From Oscillospiraceae bacterium (lineage in GTDB: Bacteria; Bacillota; Clostridia; Oscillospirales; JAAYXM01): a stretch of 64,000 bases of DNA. The DNA is taken from assembly GCA_017435965.1 (NCBI GenBank), contig JAFSEA010000027.1, positions 1-64,000 of the forward strand. The letters run 5' to 3'. Within the stretch, counting starts at the first letter, position 1; each line of letters opens with the position of its first letter. The notes under the pieces are model-generated. The model worked only from the letters and a program-made list of their open reading frames with translations, was not told the origin of the DNA and did not search any database. A program made the position numbers and the translations under genes. Shown one piece after another: positions 5,622 to 59,529 of the stretch.

Positions 5622-6845
5622 ATGCGAAATGATATTTTTCATCATACTCCGCTTGTTCCCATTGACGGTTTGTCATATCCGACACTATTCAACGAACCGG
5701 GTGAATGCAGCGGAAGTGCCACAGAAATAACTCCTGAATTTGCGCTGAAACTCGGCTATGCCTGTTCCGGTATTTTCAATCGGATTTCAATTTGTGCAAC
5801 AGAACACGGAATATGCCAACTTCTGTTATGTGCATTTATTTCCGGAGCCGGCATAAGCGGTGCGCAGATTTTAAAAAACGATGCAGATTTTTATGCCGCG
5901 GCTTCTTATGTTGCTTTAGCATTCGACTTTGAGCTGACAGTATTTATTGAAAATGACGGAACTAAACTTCGTATACATCTTATTGACAAGAACGGTTTTC
6001 CGATAAAGGAAGACACACAGAGAAAAATAGTCTCAAATTTCGGCACAAATGCATCCTTCACAATTACCGATATACAAGTTTCAAATTCCATCCACGGAAC
6101 AAAAGAATTTTTTGCTTCAAATTTTAAACAAAGCCATTCTTCAAAAGGTCTCGCTGTTGCCATACGAGGAAATACTTCTTCGGCAAAGGTTCTAAAACAT
6201 ACACTTTCCCTGTGCGGATGCGAAATCGTCCAAAAAGAAAAGTGCAATCTTCTTTTTGATATTTCAAGCGATGGTCTTAAGCTCCGAATCCGCGACGAAA
6301 AGCATATATGGCACGACGAATCGCACATCTCGGCACTCGTGGCATATTTATTCTTTTCAAATAATAAAAAAACGCTTGCCATTGATGCCGATGCACCAAA
6401 CGTCATCGAGCAAATAGCAAGCGACTGCGGAGGTCGAGTTTTGAGAATCGGACGTGACAAAAACGCAGAAGAGACATTTAAAAAGCAGCACATTCTCAGA
6501 AATGCCGTCGCAGATGCTGTTTATCTTTGCTCATATCTTTCTTCGAGCAAAGAGCCTCTTTTTTCTCTTATGAAAAAGCTTCCTGATTTTATCTTAATTT
6601 CACAAGAAGTTAATGTAAAATCCGACAAGCATGAAATTATATCTCATTTTGCCGAGTTAAAAAACGGACTTTACAAAGAAAACGCAGAATCGCTCAGAAT
6701 CTGTGCAGACGGCGGCTGGATAAATATAACTCCTTCACGTACAGGGAGAGCTCTTCGCATTACCGCTGAAAGCTTCAATGAAGAAATTGCATCGGAACTT
6801 TGTAAGCTATATGTTGAGCGCACCAGACATTTCGACAATACTTGA
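5622..6845 (+). CDS. degenerate phosphohexomutase homologue, probable pseudoenzyme (407 aa)
   Basis: The layout follows an alpha-D-phosphohexomutase (phosphoglucomutase/phosphomannomutase). Domain 1 starts ITPEFALKLGYA; domain 2-3 contains LLFDISSDGLKLRIRDE, where the metal loop DGDGDR is expected; a GGRVLRIG element follows; the C-terminal domain is ITPSRTGRALRITAES, where RPSGTEPxxRxxxEA is expected. The catalytic serine loop (TASHNP) is not recognisable and the metal and phosphate loops are altered, so normal mutase activity is unlikely. The ATG at 5622 has GGAGGA 7 nt upstream; a TTG at 5607 overlaps that site and was rejected. The frame is intact and long, so it is maintained rather than decaying. 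Assignment rests on pattern recognition, not alignment. Confidence 0.6.
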   Translation: MRNDIFHHTPLVPIDGLSYPTLFNEPGECSGSATEITPEFALKLGYACSGIFNRISICATEHGICQLLLCAFISGAGISGAQILKNDADFYAAASYVALAFDFELTVFIENDGTKLRIHLIDKNGFPIKEDTQRKIVSNFGTNASFTITDIQVSNSIHGTKEFFASNFKQSHSSKGLAVAIRGNTSSAKVLKHTLSLCGCEIVQKEKCNLLFDISSDGLKLRIRDEKHIWHDESHISALVAYLFFSNNKKTLAIDADAPNVIEQIASDCGGRVLRIGRDKNAEETFKKQHILRNAVADAVYLCSYLSSSKEPLFSLMKKLPDFILISQEVNVKSDKHEIISHFAELKNGLYKENAESLRICADGGWINITPSRTGRALRITAESFNEEIASELCKLYVERTRHFDNT

Positions 6846-6859
6846 TGACAAACTAACGC

Positions 6860-6888
6860 TGGACAACCGACATCATTTATGCTATAAT
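6860..6888 (+). promoter_or_regulatory. promoter of the RNase J leader
   Basis: TGGACA, 17-nt spacer, TATAAT. It would start transcription near 6895, giving a leader of about 220 nt before the RNase J start codon. Confidence 0.65.
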
Positions 6889-6937
6889 TAAATATAATTG
6901 ATTCAGGACGTTATTTTCGGAATTACTATATAAGACA

Positions 6938-7064
6938 AAAGGATAAACTCACAAATGGGCAGTTTCTTGTCCGGCATTCTTTTCATCAACATAGTGGGGT
7001 ATGTTGATTTGCAGTTTTTGCCGTTCATCGCTCTGCACGTTTTTTTTGTGTGCCCTTATCCTTT
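6938..7064 (+). ncRNA. candidate structured leader RNA upstream of RNase J
   Basis: The leader folds on paper into a nested rod. The outer stem is 9 bp (6938-6946 with 7056-7064), then GGGCA/TGCCC (6957-6961 with 7051-7055), CGGCA/TGCCG (6972-6976 with 7019-7023), and a 9-bp apical stem (6985-6993 with 7000-7008) closed by the loop GTGGGG. Internal loops separate the stems and a run of eight T lies at 7040-7047. I do not match it to a known riboswitch or to 6S or SRP RNA. It could be a cis-acting element that controls RNase J, or a separate small RNA. Confidence 0.4.
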
Positions 7065-7115
7065 ACATAGCAATTTCGCCTTATATTGAAAACAAAAAGG
7101 AGATGTTGAATTTTA

Positions 7116-8777
7116 ATGGCACAAAAATTAAAGATTTTTTCCCTGGGCGGACTCAATGAAATTGGCAAAAATATGTATGTTTACGAATACGCCGGAGAAA
7201 TTATAGTTGTCGATTGCGGTGTTGCTTTCCCCGATGACGATATGTTGGGAATCGACCTTGTCATTCCGGATATTACTTATTTAAAAAAGCACAAAAACCG
7301 AGTTCGTGCGATTGTGATAACCCACGGTCACGAAGACCACATAGGCGCTCTTCCCTATTTCTTAAAAGAAATAAATGTTCCTATTTATGCAACCAAATTA
7401 ACAGCCGGAATCATTGATAAAAAACTTGAAGAACACAACTTACTTTCCAAAGCAAAAATGAAAATCGCCGCACCAGGCGACCGTCTCAAAATCGGAAGTT
7501 TTGAAGTAGAAATGATAAATGTGAACCATTCCATCGCCGATGCGGTTGCTCTTGCAATCAAAACACCCCTCGGAACTGTAATCCATACCGGTGACTACAA
7601 GCTGGATATCACTCCCATTCTCGGTGAGATGATGGATATTGCAAGACTCGGTGAACTCGGCAAAGAAGGTGTCCTCGCCCTTCTCGGCGAATCAACAAAC
7701 ATAGAACGTCCGGGATATACACTTTCAGAATCCACAGTCGGTGATACTTTCGAGGATCTCTTTAAAGATTGTAATCAAAGAATTATCGTTACCACATTTG
7801 CTTCAAACATCCATAGAGTTCAGCAAATAATACACGCAGCCGCACGATATGGCAGAAAAGTAGCAATCAGCGGTCGCAGTATGGAAAATGTTCTTGAAGT
7901 AGCAAACAATTTAGGCTATCTCGACATTCCCAACAACGTACTTGTTGATCTTAACACCATAAACAAGCACCCTAAAAACAAAATCTGCATCATTACAACA
8001 GGAAGCCAAGGAGAAGCAATGTCCGGTCTTTATCGTATTGCTTTTTCTGCACACAAAAAAATCGAAATCACGCCAAATGATCGAGTAATAATATCCGCAA
8101 GCCCCATTCCCGGAAACGAAAAGGCCATAAGCAACGTTATAAATGAACTATACCGAAAAGGAGCAGAGGTCATTTACGAAAAACTTGCCGATGTCCACGT
8201 CTCAGGTCATGCCTGTCAGGAAGAGATCAAGCTTATGCTTGCGCTCACAAAGCCCAAATATGTTATCCCGATACACGGTGAACACCGTCACTTAAAGGCG
8301 CACGAGGCTTTAGCCGTAAAAATGGGTGTAAAACCCAAAAATATATTTGTTTGTGATATCGGCAAAGTTGTTGAGTTTACTGAAAAAGGAGCAAAGCTCG
8401 GTGCAACTGTTCCATCCGGCAAGGTTCTTATAGACGGAACGGGAGTCGGAGATGTCGGCACCGTTGTTCTCCGTGACAGAAAGCATCTTGCACAAGACGG
8501 AATTATAACTGTTGTTGTTGCTTTAAGCAGCGAAACCGGACAATTGGTTTCCGGTCCGGACATTGTGTCCAGAGGCTTTATTTACGTCCGCGAAGCCGAA
8601 GATCTTATGGAAGAACTCCGCATACTTTCGGCAGAGGTAATGAGCACTTGCTTATCAAGCAAACGACACTCCGATTGGGCAACTATAAAGAATGTTTTAA
8701 AAAGTCGTATTTCCGATTTTCTCTATCAAAAAACAAAGCGTAGTCCTATGATTTTACCCATAATCATAGAAGTATAG
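7116..8777 (+). CDS. rnj: ribonuclease J (553 aa)
   Basis: A metallo-beta-lactamase/beta-CASP ribonuclease with 5'-to-3' exonuclease and endonuclease activity in mRNA decay and rRNA maturation. Metal motif HGHEDH at residues 70-75, further ligands in VNHSIAD and HTGDYKLD, the beta-CASP domain from about 200 (VTTFASNIHRVQQ, ITTGSQGE, ISASPIPGNE), VHVSGHA and PIHGEHRHL, then the C-terminal domain typical of RNase J. Length is normal. GGAG lies about 13 nt before the ATG, a little far. The gene sits behind a long structured leader, so post-transcriptional control is plausible. Confidence 0.97.
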   Translation: MAQKLKIFSLGGLNEIGKNMYVYEYAGEIIVVDCGVAFPDDDMLGIDLVIPDITYLKKHKNRVRAIVITHGHEDHIGALPYFLKEINVPIYATKLTAGIIDKKLEEHNLLSKAKMKIAAPGDRLKIGSFEVEMINVNHSIADAVALAIKTPLGTVIHTGDYKLDITPILGEMMDIARLGELGKEGVLALLGESTNIERPGYTLSESTVGDTFEDLFKDCNQRIIVTTFASNIHRVQQIIHAAARYGRKVAISGRSMENVLEVANNLGYLDIPNNVLVDLNTINKHPKNKICIITTGSQGEAMSGLYRIAFSAHKKIEITPNDRVIISASPIPGNEKAISNVINELYRKGAEVIYEKLADVHVSGHACQEEIKLMLALTKPKYVIPIHGEHRHLKAHEALAVKMGVKPKNIFVCDIGKVVEFTEKGAKLGATVPSGKVLIDGTGVGDVGTVVLRDRKHLAQDGIITVVVALSSETGQLVSGPDIVSRGFIYVREAEDLMEELRILSAEVMSTCLSSKRHSDWATIKNVLKSRISDFLYQKTKRSPMILPIIIEV

Positions 8778-8797: not shown

Positions 8798-8835
8798 AAA
8801 GGGATTGCAGTAAGGCATTTTACTGCAATCCCTTT
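8798..8835. terminator. bidirectional hairpin terminator after RNase J
   Basis: A perfect 16-bp inverted repeat (8798-8813 with 8820-8835) with a 6-nt loop and A/T ends, placed between convergent stop codons. Confidence 0.75.
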
Positions 8836-35600: not shown

Positions 35601-35647
35601 AAAACAAAAAAGGGCGCACTTAACTCACCGGGGAGTTAAATGTGCCC
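35601..35647 (-). terminator. riboswitch-controlled terminator of the purine operon
   Basis: Arms 35633-35647 and 35612-35626 pair over 15 positions with one mismatch and one wobble, followed on the minus strand by a long T-run. The first arm shares its GGGC with the 3' end of the ZTP aptamer, so ligand binding should block this hairpin and allow read-through into purE. Confidence 0.8.
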
Positions 35648-35730
35648 AGACGGTCGGCAAATGCGGGGGAACACCCCGAGATTTCTCTGCTTCCTGTGGT
35701 GCTCCACAAATCCGTCAGTCACAGAGAAGT
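35643..35730 (-). promoter_or_regulatory. ZTP (pfl) riboswitch aptamer
   Basis: On the minus strand the conserved pieces follow in order. P1 is CTTCTCT with AGAGAA; the core is GTGACTGACGGA (35711-35722 plus flank); the P2 hairpin GTGG..CCAC is followed by AGGAAGC (35689-35707); a variable GC-rich hairpin comes next; the 3' P3/pseudoknot part is CCGACCGTCTGGGCA (35643-35657). This matches the ZTP/pfl class, which turns on purine and folate genes when ZTP (or ZMP) rises. It sits between the operon promoter and a terminator, upstream of purE. Confidence 0.88.
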
Positions 35731-35751
35731 TTATCAAATTTTCACTACATA

Positions 35752-59254: not shown

Positions 59255-59523
59255 TAAAAAAGTCCCAAGCTGTGTTACACAGCTTAGGACGAACTGAATA
59301 CATAGTCCGCGGTACCACCTAAATTCGGATAAATCCGCACCTCACAAGCACGAAAGCCCGTGCTTTTCTCTATAACGGGAGAAGACCGGTATGACTTAAT
59401 CGGAGAAAGCTCTCCTTTCGCCAACAGCTCCGAGACCGGTTCGGCATATCCTCAATAAGGGCTTGCACCTTCCGCCCTCTCTCTGAAAAATCAGAAGTGC
59501 CTACTATTCCTCTTCACAGCTTT
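59255..59523 (-). promoter_or_regulatory. T-box riboswitch of proS (specifier CCG, proline)
   Basis: The antiterminator T-box AGGTGGTACCGCGG is at 59307-59320. A terminator with a 13-bp stem (59262-59274 with 59278-59290, two mismatched positions) and T-run follows it. Upstream is a stem I with the GAA-CCG-G specifier region at 59437-59442; CCG is a proline codon, matching the downstream gene. Uncharged tRNA-Pro should favour antitermination. All distances are normal for the class. Confidence 0.92.
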
Positions 59524-59529
59524 TTAGGT

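Follow-up and report, generated by a model that had tools for sequence, protein, structure and literature searches.

A structured mRNA leader with a predicted EndoA site precedes the RNase J gene of an Oscillospiraceae bacterium

Results

We analysed a window of 64,000 nt from Oscillospiraceae bacterium (GCA_017435965.1, contig JAFSEA010000027.1), in which a leader RNA lies in front of rnj, the gene for RNase J (Table 1). RNase J is a main RNA-degrading enzyme and acts as a 5'-3' exonuclease. The four other genus members have orthologues of 86-88 per cent identity. A preliminary description of the locus had claimed a clear promoter ahead of the leader, and a consensus scan found a promoter-like site there. 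The site at 6860-6888 matches 11 of 12 consensus positions, and a TG precedes its second hexamer. It is the top-scoring of 11 promoter sites in 4 kb; since shuffled sequence yields 9.7 comparable sites (at least 9 consensus matches), it is distinctive by score only. A TGGACA followed by a TATAAT-like box also lies 5' of the closing stem, P1, in all five leaders of the genus. Transcription would start at about 6895. Directly 3' of rnj we detected a strong terminator-like hairpin of 17 pairs (8798-8835, + strand), and so the transcript may carry no gene beyond rnj.

Two further features were noted around these loci. At locus L037, in a genome of the window's family, Rfam places a Gut-1 sRNA (RF01706) just 3' of rnj and on the opposite strand (L037:1360-1437, +; 51.5 bits, cut-off 50). 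In the window itself, a protein that resembles tyrosine recombinases by sequence (626-1741, - strand) adjoins a tRNA gene (1669-1741), and the pair is a possible integration site.

Table 1. Features of the rnj locus, and the EndoA gene of the same genome
Feature	Position	Strand	Description	Basis
Putative promoter	6860..6888	+	sigma-70-type, TGGACA-17-TATAAT, extended -10	consensus scan
P1, 5' strand	6918..6932	+	CGGAAUU-A-CUAU-A-UA	genus alignment, pairs read out
P2, 5' strand	6938..6946	+	AAAGGAUAA, foot of variable rod	folds, cognate-arm test
P3, 5' strand	6972..6976	+	CGGCA, pairs with 7019-7023	fold
P4, apical hairpin	6985..7008	+	AUCAACAUA-GUGGGG-UAUGUUGAU	fold, genus pairing
P3, 3' strand	7019..7023	+	UGCCG	fold
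U-tract	7040..7047	+	within 3' arm of rod	sequence
P2, 3' strand	7056..7064	+	UUAUCCUUU	folds, cognate-arm test
P1, 3' strand	7064..7078	+	UA-C-AUAG-C-AAUUUCG	genus alignment, pairs read out
UACAUA hexamer	7064..7069	+	within P1 3' strand	conservation, published EndoA/MazF specificity
Shine-Dalgarno of rnj	7097..7102	+	AAGGAG, 3' of predicted EndoA cut	read from sequence
rnj	7116..8777	+	RNase J, 553 aa	open reading frame
EndoA gene	G000:C105:6652-6975; L221:1483-1839 (strand as in L221)	-	own genome, contig C105	PF02452 match

The preliminary description had drawn nested stems with a GTGGGG loop over about 127 nt. These stems are present: an outer stem of 9 bp (P2, 6938-6946 paired with 7056-7064), the 5-bp CGGCA/UGCCG stem (P3), and an apical stem of 9 bp (P4, 6985-6993 paired with 7000-7008) around a GUGGGG loop at 6994-6999. 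Together they make a rod of 127 nt, 6938-7064. The extent given earlier thus stands for the rod, but the conserved structure is wider, from 6918 to 7078, and includes P1, which had been overlooked. The segment 6937-7070 folds at -38.4 kcal/mol (z = -3.8), a value equalled by none of 200 shuffles, and the whole leader (6895-7115) shows a weak excess (z = -1.75, equalled by 13 of 200 shuffles). Because the excess over the whole leader is weak, folding of the single sequence is indecisive, and comparison with relatives settles the rod.

All four other genomes of the genus have a homologous leader at the same place as in the window, built to one plan: P1 closes the structure, the rod above it is long and variable, and a hairpin with a GUSGGG loop forms its tip. 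The genus alignment reads UUUCG[GA]AAUU[AU]CUAUAUA on the 5' side, AUCNNNNUA-GUSGGG-UANNNNGAU in the middle, and UACAUAG...UUUCG on the 3' side, about 60 nt 5' of the rnj start codon. The GUSGGG loop and a run of 4 to 8 U occur in all five leaders, and the GG/CC core of P3 is retained in all four that were aligned. MAFFT alone misplaced the 3' strand of P1 in some rows, and a two-sequence model (A4, R1) was used instead. One leader, L063, has an extra hairpin and its P1 was misaligned by R1; it was omitted from alignment A5, which holds four of the five sequences, and included in the arm-swap test and in the readout of P1 and P4 pairs described below.

Across P1 and P4, 21 of the 22 listed positions can pair in each of the five leaders; the sole exception is a constant A.C mismatch facing the C of UACAUA. 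P4 retains all nine pairs in every leader, with pairs 4 (AU, AU, GC, AU, GU) and 5 (AU, GC, CG, GC, GC) altered on both sides. Both strands of P1 are almost invariant, and such variation as occurs is on one side only. The apical hairpin is present in the lowest-energy fold of every single leader. P1 appears as drawn in the lowest-energy folds of L035 and L036. The fold of L033 has the inner CUAU/AUAG half of P1 with the outer pairs displaced, and those of the window and L034 lack P1. In the model-fitted alignment of four sequences, 98 per cent of cells pair; shifting the partners by 1 to 3 columns lowers this to 30-44 per cent. Column-wise covariation on these four sequences is modest: of 500 shuffles, 25 equalled the covariation score and 101 had as many two-sided pairs.

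The rod between P1 and P4 is too divergent for reliable alignment; hence, we used an alignment-free arm-swap test. Over the five species, rod arms paired with their own partners at a mean of -35.3 kcal/mol, compared with -25.1 for mixed arms, and among the 120 assignments the own-species pairing was the best in total. There were two individual exceptions: the 5' arms of the window and of L036 pair with the 3' arm of L035 at -30.4 and -34.4, against -29.3 and -32.8 with their own. On the short P4 strands alone, 6 of 120 assignments were as good. The compensatory change that the preliminary description had asked for in homologous leaders was found, in the rod arms and in pairs 4 and 5 of P4 (n = 5). 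The rod is conserved and compensatorily paired within one genus, and we conclude that 6918-7078 is almost certainly a structured cis-element of the rnj mRNA.

The leader had been described as of unknown class, and the Rfam check agrees. Rfam 15, run on the whole window at gathering score, returned tRNA, T-box and ZTP matches elsewhere (a ZMP/ZTP riboswitch at 35637-35732 and a T-box leader at 59282-59526, both on the - strand) and nothing on the rnj leader; with E up to 10, the interval 6800-7200 gave four chance-level matches far under gathering score. We searched 59 genomes, the five genus members and 54 others, with the two-sequence covariance model. Every genus member gave exactly one match, each before rnj; none of the 54 others gave a match below E 0.1 under stricter filters, and one gave a match at E 0.79. 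R1 also gives a match on the complementary strand of the leader in the window (26.5 bits, E 0.04), as expected for a near-symmetric rod. A DNA similarity search of the leader against 98 relatives gave only short matches, except for a 70 per cent match in G002, and is uninformative because the sequences are too diverged. As the leader is structured, compensatorily paired, and found solely before rnj among 59 genomes, a part in the control of RNase J is a sensible reading. The preliminary description had suggested as much, with a structured leader that the pairing upholds, but had foreseen neither P1 nor the UACAUA hexamer in its 3' strand.

No other hexamer is as enriched as UACAUA in the rnj leaders of the order. 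In an initial count over the 300 nt 5' of rnj at 90 non-redundant loci (reduced from 99), TACATA was found at 42, against 5.8 expected. Of 53 occurrences, 29 lie 27-63 nt 5' of the start codon and none from -107 to -63; the distance from hexamer to start codon ranges from 27 to about 110 nt. Within -80 to -15, TACATA occurs at 29 of the 90 loci, compared with a shuffle mean of 1.5 (maximum 5 in 300 rounds), and related sequences are scarce there (TACATC 1, TACATG 1, TACATT 0, TATATA 3, TAAATA 5). The A at the sixth position thus appears to be under selection. Leaders that lack UACAUA showed no substitution by UACAAA or other UACAUN sequences. TACATA is unlikely to be a promoter -10 box, since no upstream base is strongly conserved and the flanks hold no -35 signal.

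We then counted the hexamer from -115 to -18 in 141 rnj leaders, some from other orders, after removal of 9 of 150 windows as short or near-duplicate. TACATA is present in 48 and its reverse complement in 1, with about 3 expected. It is the top hexamer both in the first set (27 of 86 leaders; reverse complement 1 of 86; shuffle mean 1.4) and in a second set of rnj starts from 60 further genomes of the order (21 of 55; reverse complement 0 of 55; shuffle mean 1.6). We drew 140 leaders of other genes from the window and from twenty stretches of 20 kb in other genomes; 7 of the 140, the window's rnj among them, contain TACATA, and 7 contain its reverse complement (Fisher p 3e-10). Because the leaders share descent, this and the other p-values given for them exaggerate independence. 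As neither the leaders of other genes nor the reverse complements are enriched, the enrichment is specific to the rnj leaders and to their RNA strand.

By genome, the hexamer precedes rnj in 35 of 89, the remaining 54 having leaders without it; by family, it is found in 18 of the 26 of the order. Butyricicoccus pullicaecorum strain ET57 has it at -40 (locus L086); the DSM 23266 locus, L079, is without it. The count by genome covers 89 of 98 order genomes, 3 without an rnj match and 6 others having been left out. For rnj genes with N-terminal extensions, the start codon was chosen by the strength of the Shine-Dalgarno sequence, a guess that may conceal some sites or produce spurious ones. In other orders of the class we observed no clear enrichment (9 of 67, against 6 of 67 for the reverse complement). 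A second count found the hexamer in 8 of 90 leaders from other orders, which were divided from the order by similarity rank rather than by taxonomy. It is absent from L109-L141, 27 of the first 90 windows and largely from other orders.

The 90 rnj coding sequences hold 8 hexamers where 16.8 are expected, a number that equals the lowest of 200 synonymous shuffles; hence, the site is retained in leaders and rare in rnj itself. MazF enzymes cut single strands. The predicted unpaired fraction is 0.59 for the hexamer and 0.37 for the preceding 60 nt (51 leaders, p 1.7e-7). In the genus the hexamer is predicted to be partly open, 0.42-0.75 unpaired, with the window at 0.42 because its fold can pair the hexamer. 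In a group of other gut Oscillospiraceae (L070, L072, L073, L075, L084 and relatives) we noted a shared GGCGAUUCAGGGCC block at -133 to -34 before rnj, which in the five named leaders is flanked by UACAUA on both sides.

We also examined leaders of two other genes for RNA-degrading enzymes. Of the 30 rny (RNase Y) leaders examined, out of 55 found, five have the hexamer, and these five all belong to the 8 that stem from the window's family. The rny leader of the window's own genome reads UACAUU. For pnp, the hexamer was present in 2 of 30 leaders examined, of 55 genomes with pnp. The rny loci of the genus (L335, L338, L339, L343, L351) have a second conserved leader, GGNUAAUAUCGUUGUUAUUG...CAAUAACUUGANUUAUUACAU, at about -170 to -60, with UACAUA in four of the five and UACAUU in the window's genome.

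A match to PF02452 (EndoA/PemK) is present in 88 of 98 genomes, including that of the window. The EndoA of the window's genome aligns with B. subtilis EndoA 4mdx over 111 residues (E 4e-47), and its gene lies about 130 nt behind alr, an order also found in B. subtilis. The gap between alr and the EndoA gene, examined alone, contains no recognisable antitoxin gene, its longest open reading frame having 33 codons, and this is possibly an orphan EndoA. We noted that pnp is on the same contig (C105). The hexamer precedes rnj in 31 of 76 genomes with a strong EndoA match; where the match is weak or missing, it does so in 4 of 13 (Fisher p 0.56). It is not significantly commoner where EndoA is present; these are draft genomes, in which absences are soft.

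The sequence at 7064-7069 equals the published EndoA/MazF hexamer in all six positions, the A at position 6 included. B. subtilis EndoA cuts U/ACAUA, and only with A as the sixth base, according to the available text of Taggart et al. 2025 (PMC11780869). The available parts of two further papers report that Symbiobacterium MazF-sth prefers UACAUA and cuts UACAUC and UACUUA weakly (PMC10893535), and that a MazF of Desulforudis, also of the Firmicutes, cuts UACAAA instead (PMC8634880), so that we can only infer the specificity of EndoA in the window organism. We consider the UACAUA hexamer to be a probable EndoA site. No report of such a site in an rnj leader appeared in the open-access literature, as judged by titles and the starts of abstracts among the matches listed, and the available part of the open-access paper that names both UACAUA and RNase J does not discuss one.

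Discussion

We propose that the rnj leader is a cis-element that is cut by EndoA and that this cut serves the autocontrol of RNase J, an explanation to which we give, as a whole, a probability of roughly 0.45. The recurrence of the hexamer before rnj suggests that the EndoA toxin helps to set the level of RNase J. EndoA would cut U/ACAUA between 7064 and 7065, separating the entire rod from a short rnj mRNA that starts 51 nt before the AUG. This mRNA would retain the Shine-Dalgarno sequence and remain translatable. With its structured 5' region, the intact mRNA would offer a poor entry for a 5'-exonuclease; the cut mRNA would have an unprotected 5' end (5'-OH, in B. subtilis trimmed to 5'-P) open to RNase J. 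When RNase J is plentiful, the cut message would be destroyed; when it is scarce, the message would survive and be translated. EndoA would thus provide the entry step for RNase J autocontrol on the rnj mRNA. P1 would partly pair the hexamer in the genus, such that folding of the rod could tune access to the site.

In B. subtilis, ends made by EndoA are visible in the absence of RNase J1, not in the wild type, and are gone in an ndoA deletion (PMC11780869, available text). They are therefore probably substrates of RNase J, although the authors raise the alternative that EndoA is activated in cells deficient in RNase J1 (same source). That RNase J feedback runs in the direction given above is a tentative proposal. 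Several results speak against the EndoA reading: the hexamer does not track EndoA across genomes, most leaders of the order are without it, other orders show no clear enrichment, the site is predicted to be just partly open in the genus, two of the lowest-energy folds lack P1, the Desulforudis MazF cuts a different sequence, and rny in the window's genome has UACAUU. We also considered whether the cut opens the ribosome-binding site. Mean accessibility rises from 0.47 to 0.53 (p 0.01, 51 leaders), yet the effect is mixed within the genus, and we do not take it as the mechanism.

The hexamer could act without EndoA. If UACAUA is bound by another factor, such as RNase J itself or another RNA-binding protein, or is the seed target of an sRNA, translation or decay would be controlled at the same place. 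Any recognition at the RNA level would suit a hexamer that is strict and strand-specific and whose flanks are not conserved, and it is found in 4 of the 13 genomes with no or a weak EndoA match. However, all six positions coincide with a published endonuclease hexamer, and distances of 27 to about 110 nt from the start codon are probably a wider spread than is usual where a bound protein or sRNA blocks the ribosome; we regard this reading as unlikely, with about one chance in a few of being right. We think it considerably less likely that the rod protects the 5' end, or is sensed directly by RNase J in the manner of the E. coli rne leader, with UACAUA kept merely as a part of P1. Both strands of P1 are almost invariant in the genus, as such a role would have it, and mRNAs of self-sensing RNases are known from rne, pnp and rnc (PMC3997798) and rny (PMC10303841), as far as the available parts of these papers go. 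It would leave unexplained a hexamer that stands between unconserved flanks in leaders of 18 of 26 families, when the rod model has no match below E 0.1 in the 54 genomes outside the genus.

The remaining readings concern the rod rather than the hexamer. A ligand riboswitch, an attenuator of transcription, and a leader that masks the Shine-Dalgarno sequence each find some encouragement: the GUSGGG loop is conserved, and U-rich runs occur in all five leaders, one of which (L036) has a strong hairpin ahead of U7. In the window fold, 7071-7082 pairs with the Shine-Dalgarno region, as does a stretch just 5' of P1 in the L033 and L034 folds. Yet the leader has no Rfam class, and apart from L036 none of the sequences showed by eye a stable hairpin immediately ahead of the U-run. 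Pairing of the stretch 5' of P1 with the Shine-Dalgarno region is not specific to its own species (24 of 120 assignments are as good), removal of the leader changes the accessibility of the ribosome site inconsistently in the genus, and there is no consistent Shine-Dalgarno pairing, so that this group of readings is improbable. A separate small RNA that merely adjoins rnj, for example a 6S-like regulator of RNA polymerase, is suggested by the rod shape and the length of about 160 nt. Against it, a 6S RNA scores above the Rfam cut-off elsewhere in the genome (G000:C45:11814-12011), the U-tract lies inside the rod, a terminator scan found no site between rod and rnj, and the leader stays joined to rnj in all five genus members; we give it very little credence. 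Least credible is a small hydrophobic protein or leader peptide. A 44-codon reading frame (6955-7089) is open in the window, but its start is unconserved in the other four leaders, where lengths and stops vary whereas the pairing is retained, and all that it has by way of a Shine-Dalgarno sequence is AAGGA, 11 nt 5' of the ATG.

The normal role of chromosomal MazF/EndoA enzymes is unsettled. If the proposed EndoA-RNase J circuit exists, EndoA would have, across many families, a physiological target in the RNase J leader whose logic is plain, and a toxin would be linked to the feedback that governs the main 5'-exonuclease. More speculatively still than the direction of the feedback, EndoA in this order of gut Clostridia might be a house-keeping endonuclease that controls the RNA-decay machinery more than a stress toxin, with UACAUA in rnj, and in rny in the window's family, letting it set RNase levels.

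In the autocontrol of E. coli pnp, RNase III cuts the leader and PNPase then degrades the message. The arrangement that we propose for rnj would resemble it in having a structured leader on the mRNA of an exonuclease, with a predicted cut by a different endonuclease 5' of the ribosome-binding site. It would differ in that EndoA is predicted to act at a hexamer of primary sequence, where RNase III acts at a duplex in pnp, in that the exonuclease is the 5'-3' enzyme RNase J, and in the phylum. The pnp case is also touched on in the available part of PMC3997798, which describes as well how an RNase governs the life of its own mRNA through the E. coli rne 5' UTR; the autoregulation of B. subtilis rny is a further example (PMC10303841, available part). 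Unlike rne and rny, whose enzymes cut their own mRNA, rnj would involve a second endonuclease. The rod is of similar length to 6S RNA (RF00013), but the rnj leader has no match to that family and the 6S RNA of this genome sits at a separate locus. The hexamer itself, including the A at position 6, is identical to that of B. subtilis EndoA and Symbiobacterium MazF-sth targets. Whereas the EndoA sites described in the available text of PMC11780869 are spread across transcripts, the predicted site recurs in the leader of one gene over an order.
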